Origin: an uncultured Mycoplasmatota bacterium
Lineage (GTDB): Bacteria > Bacillota_I > Bacilli_A > RF39 > UBA660
Length of the DNA: 6,903 nt
Assembly (NCBI GenBank): GCA_946494435.1
Contig: CAMMBO010000042.1
Coordinates: 1-6,903, forward strand
Direction of reading: 5' to 3'
In this document: one piece after another, positions 1-6,903 of the stretch
Numbering within the stretch: the stretch's first letter is position 1
How the letters are laid out: every line of letters begins with the position of its first letter
Notes under the pieces: model-generated
Database searches by the model: none
What the model saw: the letters and a program-made list of their open reading frames with translations, nothing else
Told to the model about the DNA's origin: nothing
Translations under genes and position numbers: made by a program

Positions 1-16
1 GATATTTCAGAGAAAG

Positions 17-47
17 AAAAAAGACTATCTATGCAATAATCTTTTTC
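17..47 (-). terminator. Rho-independent terminator after the 286-aa lipoprotein gene
   Basis: On the minus strand AAAGAUUAUU (44-35) pairs with GAUAGUCUUU (29-20) around a 5-nt loop. The 10-bp stem has two G-U pairs, can extend by one or two A-U pairs, and is followed by UUUUCUUU. It lies directly after the stop codon of the lipoprotein gene at 51. The downstream flank (TTTCAGAGAAAG on the plus strand) resembles the flank of the terminator at 1516-1547, so the two share ancestry. Confidence 0.8.
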
Positions 48-50
48 ATA

Positions 51-911
51 TTAATTTGTATGTTCTAATCTATATGCTTCGTTATAGTCACCATATAAAA
101 ATACTGTATCATACCCTTTATAACCTGACTTAACTACATATTCATATACCATTTCATGATAACCGTCATGAGCAGGATGGTTAATAGTTAATTTGCCATT
201 TTTATATTCATAATCAAGCACTTCTTCATGTTCCTTAGTTCCATCAGAATCTACATCATACGTAGTTACTTTATCTTCATCGAATATAAATACAGTTTGC
301 AAATTCCATTCTTCTTCTTTTATTTCAGTATAAGTACCTTCTAATTTTTTAGGAGTTGTAACTTTCTCTTTATCTTTAGGATTATAACAATATTGCCTTG
401 TACTTTCATTATTTTTATTTAACAACTCCTCAAGTGTTACACCTTCCATATTAGTTTCTTCTTTTTCACTTTCTGATAATTTATTATAATCAAGGGTAAC
501 AGTTATAACACTTTTATTCTTTTTATGTGATATATCTTCTTTAGCACTAGTATATTCTATTCCTCTTATTGTACTTTTAGCTTGTTTTTCTATATCTTCT
601 TCACTAATTTCATCACTATCATATTCATAAGTTACTGTAGTCTTTATTTCACTTATTTTACCATCTTTAAATACAAAAACAGCTTCAAAATTCTGCTCTA
701 CTGGTGTATCAAGTTTCGTAGTCTTACCATCTTTATTAATTACTGTTGCAACTTCTTTTTGATTACATATTATTTCTTCAGCTCCATCATCAGTATTAGT
801 AGAATTATTATTACTTTCTTTTAAATTACTACTTTCGCTTTCATTACCACAGCCAGTAATCCCTAATAGCATTACCCCACAAATCAAACATAATAATATT
901 TTCTTTTTCAT
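51..911 (-). CDS. Two-domain lipoprotein, YehR/DUF1307-like plus lipocalin-like C-terminus
   Basis: Predicted exported lipoprotein of 286 aa. The N-terminus is a typical signal peptide (MKKK, then a hydrophobic stretch) ending in the lipobox ITGC, so Cys21 would be lipidated and the protein anchored on the outer face of the membrane. Residues about 22-45 form a Ser/Asn-rich linker. Residues about 48-175 resemble the YehR/DUF1307 lipoprotein fold: strands such as AVFVFKDGKI, a helix after SEEDIEKQ, then VITVTLDY. From about 185, LEGTY opens a second beta-rich domain that recalls the body of the 127-aa lipoprotein at 2114-2497. The ATG has AGAGGAG about 10 nt upstream. It lies 18 nt after the stop of the 170-aa gene, so it is probably the second gene of that operon. 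Its binding partner is unknown; the domain assignments are from sequence impression only. Confidence 0.8.
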   Translation of the reverse strand: MKKKILLCLICGVMLLGITGCGNESESSNLKESNNNSTNTDDGAEEIICNQKEVATVINKDGKTTKLDTPVEQNFEAVFVFKDGKISEIKTTVTYEYDSDEISEEDIEKQAKSTIRGIEYTSAKEDISHKKNKSVITVTLDYNKLSESEKEETNMEGVTLEELLNKNNESTRQYCYNPKDKEKVTTPKKLEGTYTEIKEEEWNLQTVFIFDEDKVTTYDVDSDGTKEHEEVLDYEYKNGKLTINHPAHDGYHEMVYEYVVKSGYKGYDTVFLYGDYNEAYRLEHTN

Positions 912-929
912 TTTTATCTTACTCCTCTG

Positions 930-1442
930 TTAATCTTCTATTTTAGTTATTTTTAAACTTCCTACATTTCCACCTTTGGCTTTTTGAATATATAAATAAT
1001 ATTTAAAAGGCGAATTATTCTCAGGTATTTCTATTTCTTTTTCATATCCATTACTTCCACCTACCATTGTTGGTGATTCATAATCAGTGATCTTATTAGA
1101 ACTATCAGTATCAAGCGTACTTATATATAAACTATATATTCTTTGATTTTCTATATCTTCATCTTCATTTGTTTGTATTACTTTATAAGTTCCTGTGCTA
1201 AGTACATCACCTTCAAAACTAGTAGTATCTATTCCTACTCTAATCCATTCTTCTTTAGAATCACTATTATTGTTAGTCCACTCAAAAACAGAATTAGAAA
1301 CATTACCAATAGAATCAATAATTTTATGGTTTTGTAAAACTTCAGTGTAAAATATTCCTCCAAATAACAAAGCAAGAAATGCTATTACAAAGAACAAAGC
1401 TATTGTTGCTTTTACCCCTAAATAATTAACTAACTTTTTCAT
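930..1442 (-). CDS. N-terminally membrane-anchored extracellular beta-rich protein
   Basis: Predicted 170-aa protein. The chosen start is the ATG at 1442, which follows AGAGGAGAG with good spacing. The same frame stays open upstream to 1550, but that stretch overlaps the promoter and the sRNA terminator and encodes low-complexity Ile/Tyr residues, so it is not coding. Residues about 11-34 are one strong hydrophobic segment that could act as a membrane anchor or an uncleaved signal; no lipobox Cys is present. The remainder, with VGIDTTSF, STGTYKV and a closing GSLKITKIED, reads as a small all-beta outside domain. It is the first gene of a two-gene operon with the lipoprotein at 51-911. I do not recognise a named family. 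Confidence 0.75.
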   Translation of the reverse strand: MKKLVNYLGVKATIALFFVIAFLALLFGGIFYTEVLQNHKIIDSIGNVSNSVFEWTNNNSDSKEEWIRVGIDTTSFEGDVLSTGTYKVIQTNEDEDIENQRIYSLYISTLDTDSSNKITDYESPTMVGGSNGYEKEIEIPENNSPFKYYLYIQKAKGGNVGSLKITKIED

Positions 1443-1464
1443 TACACACTCTCCTCTAAGTACA

Positions 1465-1493
1465 AGTATATATATGTATATATATATTGTCAA
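1465..1493 (-). promoter_or_regulatory. Sigma-A promoter of the 170-aa/286-aa operon
   Basis: On the minus strand TTGACA (1493-1488) is followed after 17 bp by TATACT (1470-1465). The expected start near 1458 falls almost at the Shine-Dalgarno AGAGGAG (1457-1451), giving a leader of only about 16 nt. It lies downstream of the terminator at 1516-1547, so the operon does not depend on read-through from the leader RNA. Confidence 0.75.
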
Positions 1494-1511
1494 GAGTATT
1501 TCAGAGCAAAA

Positions 1512-1631
1512 GAAAAAGACTGCCATATATTGATTTTTGACAGTCTTCATAAGATATAACTTAGTGTGTGATACAAGTATTATATCCTACTTAACATAGA
1601 AAAATATTTATATATAACATTTCCCTAGTCA
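1512..1631 (-). ncRNA. Candidate small RNA, copy A (about 115 nt)
   Basis: This independent transcription unit has its own promoter (1638-1667), no plausible ORF, and a terminator at 1516-1547. After the expected start, GGGAAAUGUU pairs with AAUAUUUUUC (10 bp including three G-U pairs). AAGUA/UACUU then forms a short second hairpin, followed by the unpaired GUAUCACACACU and the terminator. A 37-nt core differs at one base from copy B at 2549-2666, while the first stem keeps pairing despite A-to-G changes. The downstream gene has its own promoter, which favours an sRNA over a riboswitch or attenuator. I do not recognise an Rfam family. Confidence 0.55.
1516..1547 (-). terminator. Terminator of sRNA copy A
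   Basis: On the minus strand AAGACUGUCA (1547-1538) pairs with UGGCAGUCUU (1525-1516) with one G-U pair and a 12-nt loop, followed by UUUCUUUU. It lies between the promoter at 1638-1667 and the next promoter at 1465-1493. Confidence 0.8.
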
Positions 1632-1688
1632 TTTTGAATTATAGCATAATAAATATAATTCTTACAATTTTAATTTACATTTTATCTA
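1563..1688. repeat. Direct repeat, copy A (partner at 2592-2722)
   Basis: About 126 bp closely match 2592-2722 in the same orientation. The repeat covers the last codons and stop of the SHOCT gene (plus strand ACATTTTATCTA), the sRNA promoter and the sRNA core. Beyond it both flanks differ, including the terminator hairpins. The first-stem loop and the -35/-10 spacer differ by small indels. Confidence 0.85.
1638..1667 (-). promoter_or_regulatory. Promoter of sRNA copy A
   Basis: On the minus strand TTGTAA (1667-1662) is followed after 18 bp by TATAAT (1643-1638), preceded by TGC, an extended -10. The same arrangement (TTGTAT, 17 bp, TATAAT) is kept in copy B although the spacer sequence has diverged. 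Confidence 0.65.
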
Positions 1689-2088
1689 ATAAATCTTTTT
1701 TCTTTTTCTCATATTCCTCTTTTGTGATAACCTTTTCATCATATAACTTTTTTAACTTCTCAAGTTTAGTAGTACTATCTTCTTCTTTAGACTTCATTAA
1801 TATTTTACTTATATTAACTTGATTCTCACCATTACTTTTGTATAAGAATGCGACAATGACTAAAGCAACTCCACCTACTGCCATTATAATAAAAATTGGT
1901 CGGCTTGCCTCTTGTTGTTCTTCTAGTTCTTCTTCTGTAGTTCTCCAATATTCAGAAGCATCTACAGGCTCAAAAGAATTAGCATAACCACCTATTCCCA
2001 TAATTAATAAAAATACTGCTATAATTATCATACCCCAAAAGTTTTTAGTAACATTTCTTGAAGATTTTTTTACTTCTTTATTATTCAT
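1675..2088 (-). CDS. Small two-TM membrane protein with C-terminal SHOCT domain
   Basis: Predicted 137-aa membrane protein. Residues about 17-35 and 65-83 are hydrophobic helices separated by an acidic loop (EEELEEQQE) likely to face outside. Residues 106-137 form a SHOCT (short C-terminal) domain, recognisable from KLEKLKKLYDEKVITKEEYE and a basic end. SHOCT domains are oligomerisation or localisation modules of about 30 residues found at the C-termini of many bacterial proteins. I chose the ATG at 2088; the TTG at 2097 sits too close to AAAGGGG to be the start. The gene begins about 25 nt after the 127-aa lipoprotein gene and is probably cotranscribed with it. The last codons lie inside the duplicated repeat, and the 89-aa gene ends in the same DKM. 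Confidence 0.8.
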   Translation of the reverse strand: MNNKEVKKSSRNVTKNFWGMIIIAVFLLIMGIGGYANSFEPVDASEYWRTTEEELEEQQEASRPIFIIMAVGGVALVIVAFLYKSNGENQVNISKILMKSKEEDSTTKLEKLKKLYDEKVITKEEYEKKKKDLLDKM

Positions 2089-2113
2089 TTTAATCAATTC
2101 CCCTTTCTAAAAT

Positions 2114-2497
2114 TTAATCTTCTAACCAAAAGTCCTCATAAGTAGTAGAACCTTCTACTGGAATTAAAGTTAGCTGTTTAGGAGATAATCCTTCTTCTTC
2201 TTTTATTTTATATTCATATTCAGTTTTATTTCCACTTTCATCACTCATAATAATTACAGTATCTTCATCCATTACTTTATAAGTTCCACTAAAATCATAA
2301 ACTTTATTAAAAGTACCATAACACTCTCTAGTGACATTTTCTTCTTTAAAAGTCCATTCACACATTTGATTTTTTGATGATTCACCAGACCAAGTTCCAA
2401 GTAGTACCTTCTGTAATTCTTCATTTTCTTGATTACCACAACCAGTTACTCCTAATAAAAGAACTCCACACAATAAACACAAAAATATTTTTTTCAT
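2114..2497 (-). CDS. Small lipocalin-like lipoprotein
   Basis: Predicted 127-aa lipoprotein. The signal peptide ends in VTGC, so Cys20 would be lipidated. It is almost residue for residue like the signal of the 286-aa lipoprotein at 51-911, which suggests common descent. The mature part starts with LLGTWSGES and alternates short strands (MCEWTFKEENV, SGTYKVMDEDTVII, YEYKI, KQLTLIPV), the pattern of small lipocalin-like, stress-type lipoproteins. The ligand is unknown. The start is fixed by AAAGGAGAG, with GUGUGUA between it and the ATG, exactly as in the 170-aa gene. A consensus promoter lies at 2520-2548. It is the first gene of an operon with the SHOCT protein at 1675-2088. Confidence 0.82.
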   Translation of the reverse strand: MKKIFLCLLCGVLLLGVTGCGNQENEELQKVLLGTWSGESSKNQMCEWTFKEENVTRECYGTFNKVYDFSGTYKVMDEDTVIIMSDESGNKTEYEYKIKEEEGLSPKQLTLIPVEGSTTYEDFWLED

Positions 2498-2519
2498 TAC
2501 ACACTCTCTCCTTTACATA

Positions 2520-2548
2520 ATTATATATAAAATATTTCTTTTTATCAA
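2520..2548 (-). promoter_or_regulatory. Sigma-A promoter of the 127-aa lipoprotein operon
   Basis: On the minus strand TTGATA (2548-2543) is followed after 17 bp by TATAAT (2525-2520), with the Shine-Dalgarno immediately downstream. It lies after the terminator at 2553-2577, repeating the order seen at 1465-1547. Confidence 0.75.
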
Positions 2549-2666
2549 TAAAAAATAGAGGTATTATTCCCCTATTTAGAAAATATTACTAAGTGTGTGA
2601 TACAAGTAATATATCCTACTTAACATAGAGAAAATATTGATATATAAGTTAATATTTTCACTAGTC
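2549..2666 (-). ncRNA. Candidate small RNA, copy B (about 115 nt)
   Basis: Paralogue of the candidate at 1512-1631. It has a promoter at 2673-2701, a perfect 9-bp stem GAAAAUAUU/AAUAUUUUC, the second hairpin AAGUA/UACUU with an 8-nt loop, the unpaired UAUCACACACUU, and then a terminator. The first-stem loop is 12 nt here against 7 nt in copy A, and the terminator sequence is unrelated. Promoter, core and stem are therefore what has been conserved. There is no convincing ORF in it. Confidence 0.55.
2553..2577 (-). terminator. Terminator of sRNA copy B
   Basis: On the minus strand AAAUAGGGG (2577-2569) pairs with CCUCUAUUU (2561-2553), 9 bp with one G-U and a 7-nt loop, followed by UU and an AU-rich run. 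Confidence 0.75.
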
Positions 2667-2722
2667 ATTTGAATTATATCAAAAAAATACTAATCATACA
2701 ATTTTAATTTACATTTTATCTA
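2592..2722. repeat. Direct repeat, copy B (partner at 1563-1688)
   Basis: About 131 bp, same orientation as copy A. It starts in the last codons of the 89-aa gene (encoding IDKM and the stop) and runs through the sRNA promoter and core. Because it enters the 3' ends of two unrelated genes, it marks a module duplication boundary rather than a shared gene. Confidence 0.85.
2673..2701 (-). promoter_or_regulatory. Promoter of sRNA copy B
   Basis: On the minus strand TTGTAT (2701-2696), 17 bp, TATAAT (2678-2673), followed by the shared TCAAATGACTAG. The expected start is near 2666. Confidence 0.65.
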
Positions 2723-2978
2723 TAATATCTTCTAGCATATTATATTTTCTATATATTCTATCATTTAAAACTTCAACTTTTTGTTCCCATATTAAATGCT
2801 TATTTCTAAATATCTTTAAAGGTTCTTTAGAAATATAATAATTTAATTGATTAGATAACATTTCTATACTATTAAAAAGATATTCTAAATGAAAATTATA
2901 CTGCTTATTTATAGTATCTTTTATATTATCTAATACAACTAATATTTCATCATTTGACTTCATTTTAACATCAAACAT
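2709..2978 (-). CDS. Small helical hypothetical protein
   Basis: Predicted soluble 89-aa protein, not recognised. It has no signal peptide or membrane segment. The sequence is almost entirely helix-favouring: a first helix from SNDEILVVLDNIKDTI, a central one from HLEYLFNSIEMLSNQL, and a third from KHLIWEQKVEVLNDRIYRKYNMLEDI. It could be a small helical bundle or a coiled-coil partner. The ATG at 2978 is supported by GAAAGG at 2990-2985. The last codons fall in the direct repeat at 2592-2722, so its C-terminus may have been replaced by recombination. It appears to be monocistronic, with the palindrome at 3009-3041 upstream. Confidence 0.6.
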   Translation of the reverse strand: MFDVKMKSNDEILVVLDNIKDTINKQYNFHLEYLFNSIEMLSNQLNYYISKEPLKIFRNKHLIWEQKVEVLNDRIYRKYNMLEDIIDKM

Positions 2979-3008
2979 ATATTACCTTTCTTTCATACAA
3001 TTACTTTG

Positions 3009-3041
3009 ATATTATAAAGCCAATAATTGGTATTATAATAT
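3009..3041. promoter_or_regulatory. 33-bp imperfect palindrome with -10 boxes on both strands
   Basis: Arms of 16 bp match at 14 positions around a single central base (3025); the inner part is CCAATAATTGG. A minus-strand TATAAT at 3016-3011 is placed to serve the 89-aa gene, with an expected start near 3004, and a plus-strand TATAAT lies at 3034-3039. No good -35 is visible. The size and symmetry fit a dimeric repressor site over a promoter, but a chance AT-rich palindrome is possible. Confidence 0.45.
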
Positions 3042-3095
3042 TGTCATTATTGTTACCACTATTTACAATATTTATATTTCATAAAAAGATTAAAA

Positions 3096-3118
3096 AAATA
3101 AGTCCTATTGACTTATTT
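3096..3118 (-). terminator. Hairpin with minus-strand U-tract
   Basis: AAATAAGTC (3096-3104) and GACTTATTT (3110-3118) form a perfect 9-bp stem with a 5-nt loop. On the minus strand it is followed by UUUU, so it could be a second terminator behind the 346-aa gene or the end of a short RNA. Confidence 0.6.
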
Positions 3119-3127
3119 AAAGCAGAA

Positions 3128-3149
3128 TAATACTTTTTTAGAAGTATTA
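3128..3149. other. Inverted repeat, 8-bp stem
   Basis: TAATACTT (3128-3135) and AAGTATTA (3142-3149) are perfect inverted repeats with a 6-nt loop. There is no U-tract on either strand. It lies between two terminator-like hairpins in a gene-free stretch. Confidence 0.4.
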
Positions 3150-3174
3150 AACTAATTCTTATAAAAAACTTTCT

Positions 3175-3215
3175 AGAGAAATCTTATAGTTATCTAATTT
3201 CTATAAGGTTTCTCT
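3175..3215 (-). terminator. Strong terminator hairpin after the 346-aa gene
   Basis: A 15-bp stem (3175-3189 with 3201-3215) with a single G-U pair and an 11-nt loop sits 12 bp after the stop codon. On the minus strand a run of six U follows a few bases after the stem. Confidence 0.75.
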
Positions 3216-3227
3216 TAATTTTACTAT

Positions 3228-4268
3228 TTAGCATTTTATTTCATACATTAAATCATGCCAGTTTTCTTTTTCTTCATTAACCCATAACTTATTTTTATTT
3301 ATTGTTAATATTACTACTCTATCAAAGTCTATTGGTCTATAACACGGATCTTTTGCAACTGTTGTATTATTATAATAAATATAGAAAAACAACTCATTAT
3401 ATATATGTTTTAAAACTATATGAAAAATATTATTATCAATTTCTATATCTAGTGATATTAAATTATTATTCATTTTATCTTGATTCTCATAATTTAAAGA
3501 TATATTTTCTAATTTAATATCTCTATAACTACTATTAATAATATAATTATATATTTCTTGTGTTAATTCATAGTTATATTTAGATATTTTTTGTAGCTCT
3601 ATTTTAATATTATTAACTTTAAGTTTTAAATTCTTTAATAAGCTAATTATATTTTCTTCTTCATCAGTATCTACTTGCTTTTGAGATAAGTCATTTAGAT
3701 GATAAATATATATTAAGTTCTTATCAGTTAAATCTTTAGAAAGTAATTCCACTAATTTATCTTTTTTACTAGAAGTCATTCTCCTTAAAAAGTATGAACT
3801 TTTATTACAAAAACCATTGTATTGTAACAAACAATAATTTTTAGTACGAGATAAGCCTTCATAAAATAAATATATTAGATTATCTTTTATTTCTTCCTGT
3901 TCATATCCCATATAGATAATCTTTTTAATTGTACTTTTTATATTTAACGAAGAATCATCTAAAATACCATACTTAACTAGTCTATATGGAAAAGTAATAT
4001 CACGAGGAAATAATTTATCAATTTCAAAAAATAAATCATTAAAATAGGAAATAATTAATTTTATTGATGAAAGTTTAAGTTCAGTTACCTTTGCTCTTTT
4101 ATATCTTATCTTAAAATTTTCATCATAATTAAAATTAGTAAAATATTCTTTTAGTAAATCTTTATAAATATATTTACCATTGCTAATAACATTCAAAAAA
4201 GTCTCCTTAAGTTCTTTCTTATTTTCTAATAAAATAAATTTATCAGATGTTACATTAATATCGTTCAT
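3228..4268 (-). CDS. Orphan 346-aa hypothetical protein divergent from the HTH regulator
   Basis: Predicted cytosolic 346-aa protein with no recognised family. It has no signal peptide or membrane helix. The N-terminal 180 residues are mixed helix with many Lys/Tyr/Asn, including a YRLVKYGILDDSS stretch and a basic patch FLRRMTSSKKDK around 160-170. Residues about 206-245 look like a coiled coil (ENIISLLKNLKLKV onward). The last 70 residues alternate strands (ISLDIEIDNNIFHIVLK, LFFYIYYNN, RVVILTINKNKLWV), a possible small beta domain. The ATG at 4268 follows AAAGGA with good spacing. It is divergent from the tandem-HTH gene and shares with it the duplicated site at 4288-4387, so it is likely controlled by that regulator. 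The very low GC content suggests horizontally acquired DNA. Confidence 0.7.
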   Translation of the reverse strand: MNDINVTSDKFILLENKKELKETFLNVISNGKYIYKDLLKEYFTNFNYDENFKIRYKRAKVTELKLSSIKLIISYFNDLFFEIDKLFPRDITFPYRLVKYGILDDSSLNIKSTIKKIIYMGYEQEEIKDNLIYLFYEGLSRTKNYCLLQYNGFCNKSSYFLRRMTSSKKDKLVELLSKDLTDKNLIYIYHLNDLSQKQVDTDEEENIISLLKNLKLKVNNIKIELQKISKYNYELTQEIYNYIINSSYRDIKLENISLNYENQDKMNNNLISLDIEIDNNIFHIVLKHIYNELFFYIYYNNTTVAKDPCYRPIDFDRVVILTINKNKLWVNEEKENWHDLMYEIKC

Positions 4269-4287
4269 ACCCTATCCTTTCTTAATC

Positions 4288-4387
4288 AGTCAAGAATAAA
4301 ATTAAGTAATTGCTGTACAATGTCATAGTAGTGGAATACGTCGCAAAAGTCAAGTAGTAATTTCTTTATTTTGTAAAATTGTCATAG
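4288..4387. repeat. Tandemly duplicated, operator-like elements between divergent genes
   Basis: Two blocks occur in the same order: AGTCAAG at 4288-4294 and 4348-4354, and TGTCATAG at 4321-4328 and 4380-4387. The offsets are 60 and 59 bp, and GTGG follows each second block. The second TGTCATAG abuts the Shine-Dalgarno AGGTGG of the regulator gene. This is what a duplicated promoter-operator read from both sides would look like. A possible plus-strand -10 (TAAAAT) lies at 4373-4378. Confidence 0.5.
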
Positions 4388-4396
4388 GTGGTAATA

Positions 4397-4828
4397 ATGA
4401 TAAAACTGACAAGAATTACTGACTTAAGATATGATAATGATTTAACACAACGAGAATTATCTAATATTTTAAATGTTAAAAGAAGTGCTTACTCTAAATG
4501 GGAATGTGGTATTAATGAATTTCCTTTAATAATCATAATTAAACTTTCTTTATTTTTTGATGTAAGTGTAGATTATTTAGCTAATCTCTCAAATATTAGA
4601 GGAAAAGCTAATAAAAATATTAGTATTGATAATATTAACAAGAAAATAACTGCATTTAGAAAAGAACGTAATATCACTCAAAAGGAAATAAGTACTTATC
4701 TAAAGATAACTCAAAAAACATATTCCGATTATGAACTTGGTAAATATAAAGTACCTACTTCTATGGCTATAAACATCGCCAAATTTCATAATATTTCTTT
4801 AGAGGAATTGTTATCAAAACAATGCTAA
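4397..4828 (+). CDS. Tandem helix-turn-helix XRE-family regulator
   Basis: Predicted 143-aa DNA-binding protein made of two Cro/CI-type HTH_3 domains. Residues about 10-65 hold LTQRELSNILNVKRSAYSKWE, with the recognition helix around KRSAYSKWE. Residues 80-140 hold ITQKEISTYLKITQKTYSDYE and the usual SLEELL end. Each half keeps the Q-x-E-(I/L)-S turn. There is no peptidase or sensor domain, so it probably acts as a simple repressor, perhaps binding two half-sites with one chain. The ATG at 4397 is preferred over the GTG at 4388, which lies inside the Shine-Dalgarno AGGTGG. It is the only plus-strand gene here, transcribed away from the 346-aa gene. Such regulators are common in phages and integrative elements of Bacillota. 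Confidence 0.85.
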   Translation: MIKLTRITDLRYDNDLTQRELSNILNVKRSAYSKWECGINEFPLIIIIKLSLFFDVSVDYLANLSNIRGKANKNISIDNINKKITAFRKERNITQKEISTYLKITQKTYSDYELGKYKVPTSMAINIAKFHNISLEELLSKQC

Positions 4829-4834
4829 ACTATA

Positions 4835-4866
4835 AAAAGCAAATCAATTAAGTTTGATTTGCTTTT
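4835..4866. terminator. Bidirectional terminator between convergent genes
   Basis: A perfect 13-bp stem (AAAAGCAAATCAA at 4835-4847 with 4854-4866) and a 6-nt loop are flanked by A-rich and T-rich sequence on either side. It serves the regulator gene ending at 4828 and overlaps the stop codon of the minus-strand gene at 4865. Confidence 0.9.
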
Positions 4867-5761
4867 ATTTTTGTAATTCACTTTGTATTCCAAATGGTTT
4901 GTATTCTAATAATTTAAAACTTTTTATTATATAAGGCATGATTATTTCAATATCATCTTCTTTGCTAACATTATAGCCTTTACATAACGATTTATAATTA
5001 CCAACATTAGCATCAATATTAGTAAAAATGTTATATTTATCTTCAATGTCTAATATTCTTATATACACGCCTCTTTGTGATTTTTTAATGATAGCAAAAT
5101 TTCTTGAATCTTTATATCTTTTTCTTTTTATTTTAAATACAATTCCCTTACTATTCTTTTGGCAAATTATGCTTTTATCAAATGCAGAAATATTTTGTAC
5201 TAATTTATTAAGTAATTCTTCTTGTAAATCATTTTTTAAATATATACATAATTTGTTTATTAGTTCCATAATGTATTTTATATCTTCAACACAACTAACC
5301 AATATATAATAGCATAAAGGGTTTGTTTCATAACTCTTTATTATAGATAATCGATTTTGATAATCAAATTGTTTAATACTTCTATGTAAGTTTACAGATA
5401 AACTTTCTTGATTAACTCTAACTTCCATAATTTTTCTATGTAATCTATATGCTACGTTTTTTATTAAATAATTTCTAATTATATTATTATTAGAATTCAT
5501 TATTAGATTATCAAGTGAATTAAATAAAGTTACAGCTATTTCTTTTTTATTATATATAGTTCTTTCATAATTACTTGTATCAATTCCTTCTACTTTTTTT
5601 GTTCCATTTTTAGTATTAGAACATAGATTAGATATTAAAGTATATCCTTTTGGTAAAGCATCTATATCTTCATTACTTGTATAAACTACACCATTATAAG
5701 ATAAATTAAAGGTAGAACAGACATCTATTATAGTATTGTAAACTATATTATTTTTAAGCAA
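4865..5761 (-). CDS. Orphan protein with DUF5655-like C-terminus, probably 5'-truncated
   Basis: The frame encodes 298 aa from a TTG at 5761 and stays open to 5800 (adding a stretch that contains NTFEFKE) before a stop at 5803-5801. There is no ATG near the front. AAGGA touches the TTG, which is too close to act as its Shine-Dalgarno, so the true start is unclear and the gene may be cut off at the PBP junction. Residues 1-200 are mostly helical and unrecognised. Residues about 202-284 (RNFAIIKKSQRGVYIRILD, then EDDIEIIMPYIIKSFKLLE) resemble the DUF5655 domain, a small alpha/beta module of uncertain function often attached to nucleases and restriction-like proteins. The usual glycine-rich WGNGD part is not obvious. 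GC content is far below that of the PBP. The gene converges on the HTH gene and shares its terminator. Confidence 0.6.
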   Translation of the reverse strand: MLKNNIVYNTIIDVCSTFNLSYNGVVYTSNEDIDALPKGYTLISNLCSNTKNGTKKVEGIDTSNYERTIYNKKEIAVTLFNSLDNLIMNSNNNIIRNYLIKNVAYRLHRKIMEVRVNQESLSVNLHRSIKQFDYQNRLSIIKSYETNPLCYYILVSCVEDIKYIMELINKLCIYLKNDLQEELLNKLVQNISAFDKSIICQKNSKGIVFKIKRKRYKDSRNFAIIKKSQRGVYIRILDIEDKYNIFTNIDANVGNYKSLCKGYNVSKEDDIEIIMPYIIKSFKLLEYKPFGIQSELQK

Positions 5762-6846
5762 TTCCTTGAACTCAAATGTGTTCCTGTAGTTACTCCAAGA
5801 TTACATGAATTTTGAAGTACCTGAAGAAATGTCTGGTGTCCATGTCCTCCTGCTTTCCAACATTTAATCCTTGCAGTATCAACTTGTACAGAACCAGTAT
5901 CAGTAAACTCATCTTTAAATAAATCTACTACCCCTTCTTCTACTGCCGCAGCCGTTGTTACTATCTTTTGGGTAGAACCAGGTTCATAACTAGCCCATAT
6001 AGGAAGATTACGAGATAATTCTTCTTGAGAGTAATTCTGATAATTATTAGGATCAAAATTAGGTCTAGAACTCATTGCAAGTATCTCTCCTGTTTTAGGA
6101 TCCATAACAACAGCAAGAGCCATATCTGGATTAAACATATCGACAACATTATCAAGTTCTCTTTCAACTGACTTCTGAATATTTATATCAATAGTAAGTT
6201 GTAAATCCATACCATCTTGAGGTTCTATATATAAATCAGTTAGTTCTAGTTTATTTCCCTTAGCATCACTAAAATATTTAATCGCTCCATTCTCACCCAT
6301 TAAATAATCATCATACTGTAACTCTATACCTGATAACCCCTGATTATCTATTCCAACATAACCTAAAACGTGTGATAACATTTCTTCATATGGATAATAT
6401 CTTTTAGACTCTTTAACTAAATAAACTCCATCAAAGTTTAAGGCTTCTATTTTATCTGCTACCTCATAAGATAATCTTCTTCCTTCTGGATGAACCCTTT
6501 CAATAGATGTTTCTTTATAAACATGTTCTTTCATCTCATCAAAACTTACTCCTAAAATCTCTGCAAGTTTTGTCGTAACTTCTTTTTTATTCTTAATCTG
6601 ATTAGGTATTAAAACTAAAGAGGTAGTTGTAATATTATCGGCAAGAACCACTCCATTTCGATCAAGTATCCTACCACGTGAAGCTTCAATAGGAAGATTT
6701 CTACTCCAAAGGTCACTAGCAAGAGTTGATAGTTTTTTATAATCTACTACCTGTACATAAAACACTCTTAAGACTATTACTAATAAAATACTACTAAATA
6801 TTAAAAGAATAATTTTCATTCTCTTATCTATTCCTCTTGTAAACAT
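5743..6846 (-). CDS. spoVD: SpoVD-like class B penicillin-binding protein, 3'-truncated
   Basis: Transpeptidase of the PBP2/SpoVD type, which cross-links peptidoglycan. SpoVD acts in spore cortex synthesis, and some related lineages use this type for division. Residues about 10-30 are the membrane anchor. WSRNLP and RGRILDRNGVVLA open the dimerisation domain, as in Bacillus subtilis SpoVD. The acylated serine is S291 in S-T-Q-K (SxxK), with EPG before it, and the SxN motif is S347-C348-N349. After NSCNLGV the alignment fails and the frame ends 15 residues later at 367 aa. SpoVD is normally about 640-650 aa, so the KTG motif and any PASTA domain are missing. No other frame continues the homology, so this is not a simple frameshift. 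ATG 6846 fits the family N-terminus; ATG 6819 is an alternative with AGAGGA upstream. As it stands the product should be inactive. Confidence 0.88.
   Translation of the reverse strand: MFTRGIDKRMKIILLIFSSILLVIVLRVFYVQVVDYKKLSTLASDLWSRNLPIEASRGRILDRNGVVLADNITTTSLVLIPNQIKNKKEVTTKLAEILGVSFDEMKEHVYKETSIERVHPEGRRLSYEVADKIEALNFDGVYLVKESKRYYPYEEMLSHVLGYVGIDNQGLSGIELQYDDYLMGENGAIKYFSDAKGNKLELTDLYIEPQDGMDLQLTIDINIQKSVERELDNVVDMFNPDMALAVVMDPKTGEILAMSSRPNFDPNNYQNYSQEELSRNLPIWASYEPGSTQKIVTTAAAVEEGVVDLFKDEFTDTGSVQVDTARIKCWKAGGHGHQTFLQVLQNSCNLGVTTGTHLSSRNCLKII
5780..5800. other. Rearrangement junction inside the PBP gene
   Basis: SpoVD homology stops just after the codons for NSCNLG (5811-5794), and within about 20 bp the sequence becomes very AT-rich. 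A sample of 60 bases at 5821-5880 has 26 G or C; the 60 bases at 5461-5520 have 7. The exact crossover cannot be placed without an intact homologue. The partner junction is not in the window. Confidence 0.6.
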
Positions 6847-6849
6847 AAA

Positions 6850-6878
6850 AAACTCACTACCTTTCCAGTAGTAAGTTT
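6850..6878 (-). terminator. Terminator-like hairpin directly before the PBP start
   Basis: On the minus strand AAACUUACUAC (6878-6868) pairs with GUAGUGAGUUU (6860-6850), 11 bp with one U-G and a 7-nt loop, followed by more U and then the ATG at 6846. It may terminate an upstream gene or act as an attenuator. The loop carries GGAAAG, the best Shine-Dalgarno available to the first ATG. Confidence 0.6.
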
Positions 6879-6903
6879 ATGTTTTAAAATATTATTTATT
6901 ATT

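Follow-up and report, generated by a model that had tools for sequence, protein, structure and literature searches.

An almost certain serine recombinase element within the sporulation gene spoVD of uncultured bacteria, and its probable excision during spore formation

How can a sporulation gene run undamaged into the middle of its catalytic domain, break off within a few codons in unrelated AT-rich DNA, and perhaps still yield its protein? The question is raised by a contig of an uncultured Mycoplasmatota bacterium (assembly GCA_946494435.1, contig CAMMBO010000042.1), positions 1 to 6,903 of which were analyzed (all 6,903 nucleotides, hereafter the window). A previous annotation made from the letters of the window (the sequence-only reading) had proposed a spoVD-like gene broken at its SxN motif, possibly by an element that is excised in sporulation. 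Comparison with relatives indicates that the intruding DNA is almost certainly an element of the large serine recombinase (LSR) type seated in spoVD. The explanation preferred here as a whole, namely an LSR element in spoVD that is excised in sporulation, appears quite likely, and, with somewhat more reserve, excision probably restores spoVD in sporulating cells.

The truncated gene is an open reading frame (ORF) of 367 amino acids (aa) at positions 5743-6846 of the minus strand, in which the first 351 residues are SpoVD and the remainder is a short foreign tail. Its best NCBIfam match is TIGR02214, and the full-length homolog P0002, 100% identical to the spoVD part of the window over the matched 96%, scores above the cut-off of this spoVD model (705.6 vs 688); among the 120 matches listed, residues 1-351 are 94-100% identical to full-length SpoVD proteins of 635 aa. 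Pfam recognizes PBP_dimer and only positions 2-107 of 299 of Transpeptidase, and only the 5′ part of the spoVD coding sequence is present in the window. The blastn matches to close intact relatives end at window positions 5794-5810, and comparison with the attL and attR sites of relatives places the crossover at an AA dinucleotide in codon 352. The G+C content is 32.0% in the spoVD exon vs 23.6% in the DNA past this core. No stop codon occurs in the 351 codons of the exon, nor in 26 other exons that were read (17 of them interrupted; loci L066 and L067 lie outside this set). The features of the break, together with the first gene beyond it, are as follows (designations in G, C and L stand for genomes, contigs and loci).

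5801-6846, minus strand: 5′ portion of spoVD (exon 1), comprising codons 1-351 and, from codon 352 (N in NSCN), the two initial bases, which are the AA core (Pfam, NCBIfam, homologs)
5801-5802, minus strand: 2-bp crossover core AA, common to attL, attR and the empty sites of relatives (alignment)
5743-5800, minus strand: left end of the element, half-site TCTTGGAGTAACTACAGG..., with the out-of-gene tail and stop of the truncated spoVD frame (comparison with relatives)
4865-5761, minus strand: orf298, first gene of the element and putative directionality factor, DUF5655-like below the Pfam cut-off, with a TTG start 39 bases from the core that overlaps the truncated spoVD frame (ORF list, Pfam)

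The sequence-only reading thus was right about a spoVD-like gene broken at SxN, about the absence of decay in the 5′ half and about the switch to unrelated AT-rich DNA. The junction that it drew at 5743-5820 does cover the break, but positions 5743-5800 already are element DNA that is read by chance in the spoVD frame.

The window is short, and an assembly chimera could produce such a junction. This possibility, which that reading had itself raised, is exceedingly improbable and was rejected because the junction recurs in a separate assembly of another species: in L001 (metagenome-assembled genome (MAG) BRZ_ES bin111), which reaches 142 bases past the core, 137 of 137 element bases are identical to the window whereas the spoVD exon is only 88.2% identical (dS 0.71). 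Furthermore, the site-1 break (the SxN codon; site 2 is near codon 417 and site 3 at SxxK) recurs at the identical nucleotide in more than ten further loci, one of them on a 123-kb contig, so that, for the relatives, assembly error is already refuted.

The same discrepancy between element and host is seen in other pairs of loci: the first 303 of 303 element bases are identical between L155 and L038 vs 74.5% identity in spoVD, 75 of 75 between L036 and L066 vs 69.0% over 174 exon bases, and 75 of 75 between L051 and L046 vs 88.1% in the exon, whereas L044 and L062 share 94.6% identity over 978 bases of the element vs 71.9% in the exon. The jump in identity between hosts falls at the core. An identical element end that is joined to the gene of different species at one and the same nucleotide implies a site-specific, recently mobile element; in these relatives, the same element end has spread between species recently. 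The sequence-only reading had taken the intact half to signify either a recent insertion or a gene kept functional by excision. The identical element ends agree with recent insertion.

What the complete element looks like can be learned from the relatives, 78 loci from GTDB species genomes, mostly of uncultured Bacilli and 'Tenericutes', with some Candidatus Onthousia and Candidatus Ventrenecus; a search of 291 genomes of the family with orf298 yielded homologs in 13. Three elements are complete on single contigs, with lengths of 4629 bp in G002 (L067), 6345 bp in G143 and 15499 bp in G057, and all three show a common order and orientation: exon 1, orf298 homolog, cargo, LSR, exon 2. The LSR adjoins attR in relatives, and that of G002, for which the domains were tested, comprises Resolvase, Recombinase and a Zn ribbon. 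When the DNA between the AA cores is deleted, the frame is open through NSCNPGF in 3 of 3 complete elements, and the joined proteins of G143 and G057 pass TIGR02214 (727 and 716, respectively, vs 688). Judged by eye, the cargo includes acetyltransferase-like and amidotransferase-like genes in G002, DNA-glycosylase-like and methyltransferase-like genes in G143, and an Rhs-like repeat protein and a TraG-like ATPase in G057; behind exon 2, an mraY-like gene (by eye) follows in G002 and G057, the two that were read further. The carrier of the smallest complete element, G002, is also the carrier of an exon 1 frameshift to which we return below. In G014 and G010, the deduced attP has arms inverted around the AA (TTGCTGT..ACACCAAG-cAAt-CTTGGTGT..ACAGCAA, by eye), and likewise in G015 and G016 (by eye). 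Thus, the 3′ half in the same orientation, the recombinase and the short shared core that had been predicted for the window are all found in G002, G143 and G057, and the recombinase, for which either the serine or the tyrosine type had been considered, is of the serine type; the recombinase, right end and spoVD 3′ part of the window element itself are expected to lie beyond position 1.

Insertion into spoVD is recurrent. Among the 78 relatives, spoVD is interrupted at one or more of the three sites in 22 and intact in 48. Site 1 is broken in 12 loci (including L066, which is also broken at site 3) and site 2 in 10; of the remaining loci, L041 and L055 end at the site-1 core and are not callable, 2 end within the exon, and 4 are diverged or cut. 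A spoVD 3′ piece with an open frame past the crossover was found in 18 of the 22 interrupted genomes. A site-1 break together with a site-2 3′ piece occurs in five genomes (G001, G007, G011, G012 and G013). In G007, sites 3 and 1 are broken on one contig and a site-2 3′ piece lies elsewhere, amounting to three breaks in one gene. On that contig (L066, G007:C61, 1534-6975), spoVD is cut at SxxK by a separate element with its own LSR of 576 aa, followed by the exon and then by the site-1 element. In G010 and G017, there is a second full-length, diverged copy of spoVD that probably comes from mixed bins. Two site-2 elements have peculiarities of their own: in L069 (13861-17750), the recombinase is broken by an ORF pair resembling insertion sequence IS21 (by eye), and the right end of the element runs into another copy of a left end, as if two elements stood in tandem; in L014 (11418-12722), the first cargo gene encodes a KAP P-loop NTPase that matches PDC-S20, a candidate defence family (E 3e-45). 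Defence genes may be among the cargo of some elements.

Are these genes restored or are they dead? The best hint of excision comes from bin G400 (dairy cattle duodenum), where contig C59 stops 2 bases beyond the core, and its last 141 bases recur exactly as the start of contig C23, which continues as intact spoVD. This overlap amounts to a branch of the assembly at the att site, the pattern to be expected if interrupted and uninterrupted molecules with the same upstream DNA coexisted. Other contigs also end near the core: L041 exactly at it, with no partner contig in bin G301; L036, L051 and L066 75 bases past it; and L113 with 77 bases to its end. Such ends were not counted as proof of circles because the same branch would arise from two species with a common element end (the 75 bases are common to L046 and L051).

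The gene content of the relatives is compatible with spore formation. The checks for sporulation genes and for a second spoVD/ftsI that had been proposed for the host were run on relatives: SpoIVA is present in each of 25 genomes, albeit fragmented in some, and Spo0A_C in 22 of the 25, and at least one further penicillin-binding protein (PBP) paralog, 32-37% identical, in 23 of 23 genomes searched (partial in G017; without assignment by a family model). Given this paralog, the split spoVD need not be the vegetative one. The sigK model was discarded as evidence of sporulation because it is too broad, with full-length matches in 25 of 25 genomes, above the cut-off in 4, and matches also in 11 of 14 control genomes. 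In exon 1, the ratio of nonsynonymous to synonymous substitution rates (dN/dS) is 0.038 between the window and L003 and 0.015 between the window and L002; four intact pairs fall between 0.041 and 0.093, and nine interrupted pairs between 0.035 and 0.228.

Several observations weigh against restoration by excision. No excised circle (attP) was detected in 386 genomes, in viral contigs or in 302 loci, a search whose pattern covers left ends of the TCTTGG type only, and in G400 the other branch was not seen. Three of the nine interrupted pairs have dN/dS values of 0.125-0.228, higher than those of the intact pairs. Because the insertions look young, intact halves and low dN/dS do not tell whether a gene is still functional or was inactivated recently. 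A separate frameshift lies in exon 1 of G002 (L067), near codons 91-104 (near position 420), and therefore this gene would need more than excision unless the frameshift is a sequencing error. Inverted attP arms are not evident by eye in G143 and G002. No spoVD 3′ piece was found in 4 of the 22 interrupted genomes (G004, G005, G017 and G022), and the middle exon of 65 codons, that is, exon 2 between site 1 and site 2, was found in none of the five double-broken bins, which would fit either its loss or a position between two elements on a contig outside the bin. For the window element itself, neither a recombinase nor the 3′ half is visible, both being expected off the left edge, and the interior of the window has no close relative among the 386 genomes searched. 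Finally, a scan upstream of 12 LSRs with a sporulation consensus of the sigE/sigK type gave 0 of 12 regions with the motif, a weak negative given that 0.1-1.0 would be expected by chance.

Many of these points would fit a dead-end insertion, in which a conserved stretch of spoVD is no more than a landing site for the LSR, the gene is inactivated, and the lineages lose sporulation while the halves decay. Such a course would account for the recent look of the insertions, with element DNA identical between hosts, for the frameshift of G002, for the raised dN/dS of some interrupted pairs, for the lack of a visible circle, and for the missing exon 2 in 5 genomes and missing 3′ piece in 4. Against this course, the 3′ piece is kept open in 18 of 22 genomes, the 17 interrupted exons read besides that of the window are free of stops (in the set without L066 and L067), and the Spo0A and SpoIVA genes are retained. 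Moreover, LSR elements of the same genomes split other sporulation genes that again can be joined in frame. With these facts on the table, the dead-end course seems unlikely.

The evidence on other genes comes from a search of 20 genomes with the PF07508 profile; 19 of them contained matches, 114 in total. For 80 of these matches, the DNA that follows was fetched, and among 84 downstream ORFs, 8 that looked truncated were picked by eye and scanned with Pfam. Seven of the 8 match only part of a profile or protein, and the eighth consists of LysM repeats only; many of the remaining downstream ORFs are further mobile genes or whole genes. The partial targets are Amidase_3 of G023 (in two pieces, both on the same contig), YabG and Peptidase_S11 (G018), ZIP (G019; L250 of G011 belongs to the same cluster), the C-terminus of SpoIVA in G001 (TIGR02836 positions 400-492), and, split beside an LSR, an Mn_catalase in G007 (L286) that we take to be CotJC-like. 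The spoIVA gene is split near codon 122 in G010 (C11/C110) and G013 (C26/C18) (L167-L170) and near codon 400 in G001:C5 (L285), where both halves are present with an LSR between them and join in frame to a protein that scores 691 vs 460. The joined yabG of G018 scores 291 vs 270, its exact core not being unique; the joined Peptidase_S11 of G018 is in frame and yields SITK, an SxxK motif; and in-frame joins were also obtained for ZIP of G019 and G011 and for the amidase pieces of G023. Outside spoVD, each join used a short word common to both flanks and close to where the junction was expected. The choice of this word took account of the frame, and the joins therefore imply that scarless removal is possible for these genes but, unlike in spoVD, not that it was predicted. 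For ZIP, Peptidase_S11, Mn_catalase and the amidase, a role in sporulation is unproven here.

As for the arrangement of these loci, yabG of G018 has two LSRs in tandem and the Peptidase_S11 gene of the same genome is cut at SxxK (L287, L288); the ZIP transporter genes of G019 and G011 are split beside an LSR (L289/L290); and on G023:C1 (L283, L284), a gene for Amidase_3 and LysM is in two pieces with a 12.8-kb LSR element between them, another LSR lies just ahead of the first piece, no additional N-terminal piece was identified, and the spoVD of this genome is intact.

The element could also be an ordinary integrative element or a phage relative that excises on its own signals, such as damage or conjugation, with spoVD a mere landing site and no coupling to sporulation. 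The LSRs do match the phage integrase family phrog_95 and have relatives at <60% identity in 338 phage records, no sporulation promoter motif was seen at them, the cargo varies between elements, and the tandem helix-turn-helix (HTH) regulator that the sequence-only reading had noted in the AT-rich DNA is real. The interior of the element in the window, with orf298 as listed above, reads as follows.

1-5800, no strand: visible part of the element interior, delimited by analogy with relatives
4388-4828, plus strand: tandem-HTH regulator of the Xre/Cro type (Pfam HTH_3 in two stretches, PHROG scan)
3228-4268, minus strand: orphan ORF of 346 aa, cargo, no Pfam or PHROG match (profile scans)
2709-2978, minus strand: orphan ORF of 89 aa, cargo (ORF list, profile scans)
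2114-2497, minus strand: ORF of 127 aa with a lipoprotein-like start (by eye), DUF5640-like below the cut-off (Pfam)
1675-2097, minus strand: ORF of 140 aa with a SHOCT domain (Pfam)
930-1550, minus strand: ORF of 206 aa with a 57% homolog in G006 (genome search)
51-911, minus strand: ORF of 286 aa with a lipoprotein-like start (by eye) (ORF list)

A PHROG scan of 8 element ORFs in the window revealed no phage structural gene, the matches being the HTH regulator and weak hits of unknown function for two ORFs. No recombinase is encoded within the window, comparison with phage and plasmid records gave no close DNA match, and no viral contig bearing relatives of exon 1 or orf298 was found. The lack of phage structural genes among the ORFs scanned, the probable dependence of orf298 on spoVD transcription (see below) and the fact that several further targets are sporulation genes speak against this reading, and an ordinary element appears quite unlikely. 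Among the matches listed in the search of the 386 genomes with the window element, homologs of orf298 and a 68% match to the 206-aa ORF in G006 stand out, and many short matches of low identity were set aside as AT-rich chance. The 57% homolog of the 206-aa ORF (G006:C9 4682-5212) is chromosomal and located about 4 kb behind a spoVD 3′ piece; the ORF is possibly a cargo gene derived from a host. Direct repeats surround the small element genes (1546-1604 / 2575-2633, 88%; 1648-1697 / 2682-2731, 84%) and have no match in Rfam.

In a tree of 19 recombinases, the 7 LSRs of site 2 group together and are separated from 7 site-1 LSRs by a branch with 100/100 support; those of site 1 fall into three subgroups with 49-55% identity between them, and their common clade is not resolved with respect to the LSRs of other targets. 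Of the 8 site-1 left ends that were reached through spoVD and are long enough, 6 (the window, L038, L044, L046, L062 and L067) have a homolog of orf298 and 2 (L025 and L034) do not; a homolog is also present at 10 of 10 left ends that were fetched by searching for orf298 itself (one weak, one frameshifted). No homolog (0 of 8) occurs in the 2.5 kb next to the left ends of seven site-2 elements and of the site-3 element; the elements at sites 2 and 3 therefore must use something else. The fold model of ORF298 is weak (pLDDT 66, pTM 0.50), its structure matches are insignificant, with YjbR/YdhG-like domains among the best, and no relative by sequence was found in the PDB. With its start 39 bases from the core and overlapping the spoVD frame, orf298 has little room for a promoter of its own and probably depends on transcription of spoVD. 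In L039, L066, L069 and L285, the LSR is preceded by a short ORF; this small ORF ahead of several LSRs is a competing candidate for the directionality factor.

These elements of evidence suggest the following scheme. A small, apparently non-phage, site-specific mobile element, the left end of which appears in the window, would have been integrated by its own LSR, presumably encoded off the left edge, within the SxN codons of spoVD, at the AA core of 2 bp. In the mother cell, transcription of spoVD would run into orf298 and bring about the synthesis of ORF298, the likely trigger. As a putative directionality factor, ORF298 would switch the LSR to excision, and during sporulation the two proteins would remove the element in the mother cell and rebuild spoVD. 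Under this scheme, the removal of such elements may be a precondition of spore formation in some bacteria. A bolder version, which we entertain only tentatively and consider rather doubtful, holds that the clade sporulates on 'genes in pieces'. Separate LSR elements, all in need of removal, would occupy several mother-cell genes and, in spoVD, as many as three positions simultaneously (SxxK, SxN and codon ~417); the spoVD promoter would read into the directionality factor orf298 such that transcription of the broken gene triggers its repair; and the elements would be exchanged between species and compete for sites, since excision in the dying mother cell would make residence cost-free.

If excision is programmed, these uncultured gut bacteria would perform several programmed DNA excisions per spore, a much denser use of the principle than by the elements named in the papers cited below. 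This would explain the broken-looking spore genes in MAG annotation of such genomes and offer a supply of target-specific serine recombinases with matching sites; read-through into orf298 would be a testable trigger for how such elements sense sporulation.

Split sporulation genes have precedents, to the extent covered by the sections of the cited papers that bear on them: sigK, spsM, spoVFB, spoVR, gerE and yabG (PMC4191935, PMC5595907, PMC10747680). In the skin element in sigK of Clostridioides difficile, the LSR integrates alone and excises together with a directionality factor, and it is the factor, not the recombinase, that is controlled by sporulation; this factor, CD1234, is small, acidic and under sigE and SpoIIID, whereas ORF298 has 298 aa, is encoded directly behind the host gene and would have its role by analogy (PMC5025042). 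SPbeta in spsM, vfbin in spoVFB and vrin in spoVR also reside in mother-cell sporulation genes and are excised in sporulation but differ in their phage genes and their targets (PMC4191935). The gin element in gerE of Bacillus cereus ATCC10987 is comparable in being non-phage, with serine recombinases, in splitting a sporulation gene and in the scarless restoration in sporulation, which is established for gin; however, it measures 28.6 kb, has three recombinases and targets gerE, whereas the three complete site-1 elements described here measure 4.6-15.5 kb, are located in spoVD and carry orf298 at the left end, and several element groups use this one gene (PMC5595907). The yin element of Clostridium botulinum is likewise an LSR element in a sporulation gene, with integrated and circular forms and an attB that is conserved in other strains, but its target is yabG and it is called prophage-like; a split yabG was encountered here as well, in G018 (PMC10747680). 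A mobile element in spoVD itself is on record in B. subtilis, where the insertion of ICEBs1 is a secondary site in the laboratory, of a different element with undetectable excision, and not a natural intervening element (PMC3715440). No case of a naturally split spoVD or spoIVA was found in the open-access literature searched, as far as the portions covered extend. What is new here compared with elements of the skin, gin and yin kind is the spoVD target, the three sites in one gene, and apparently non-phage elements that are common to several species.

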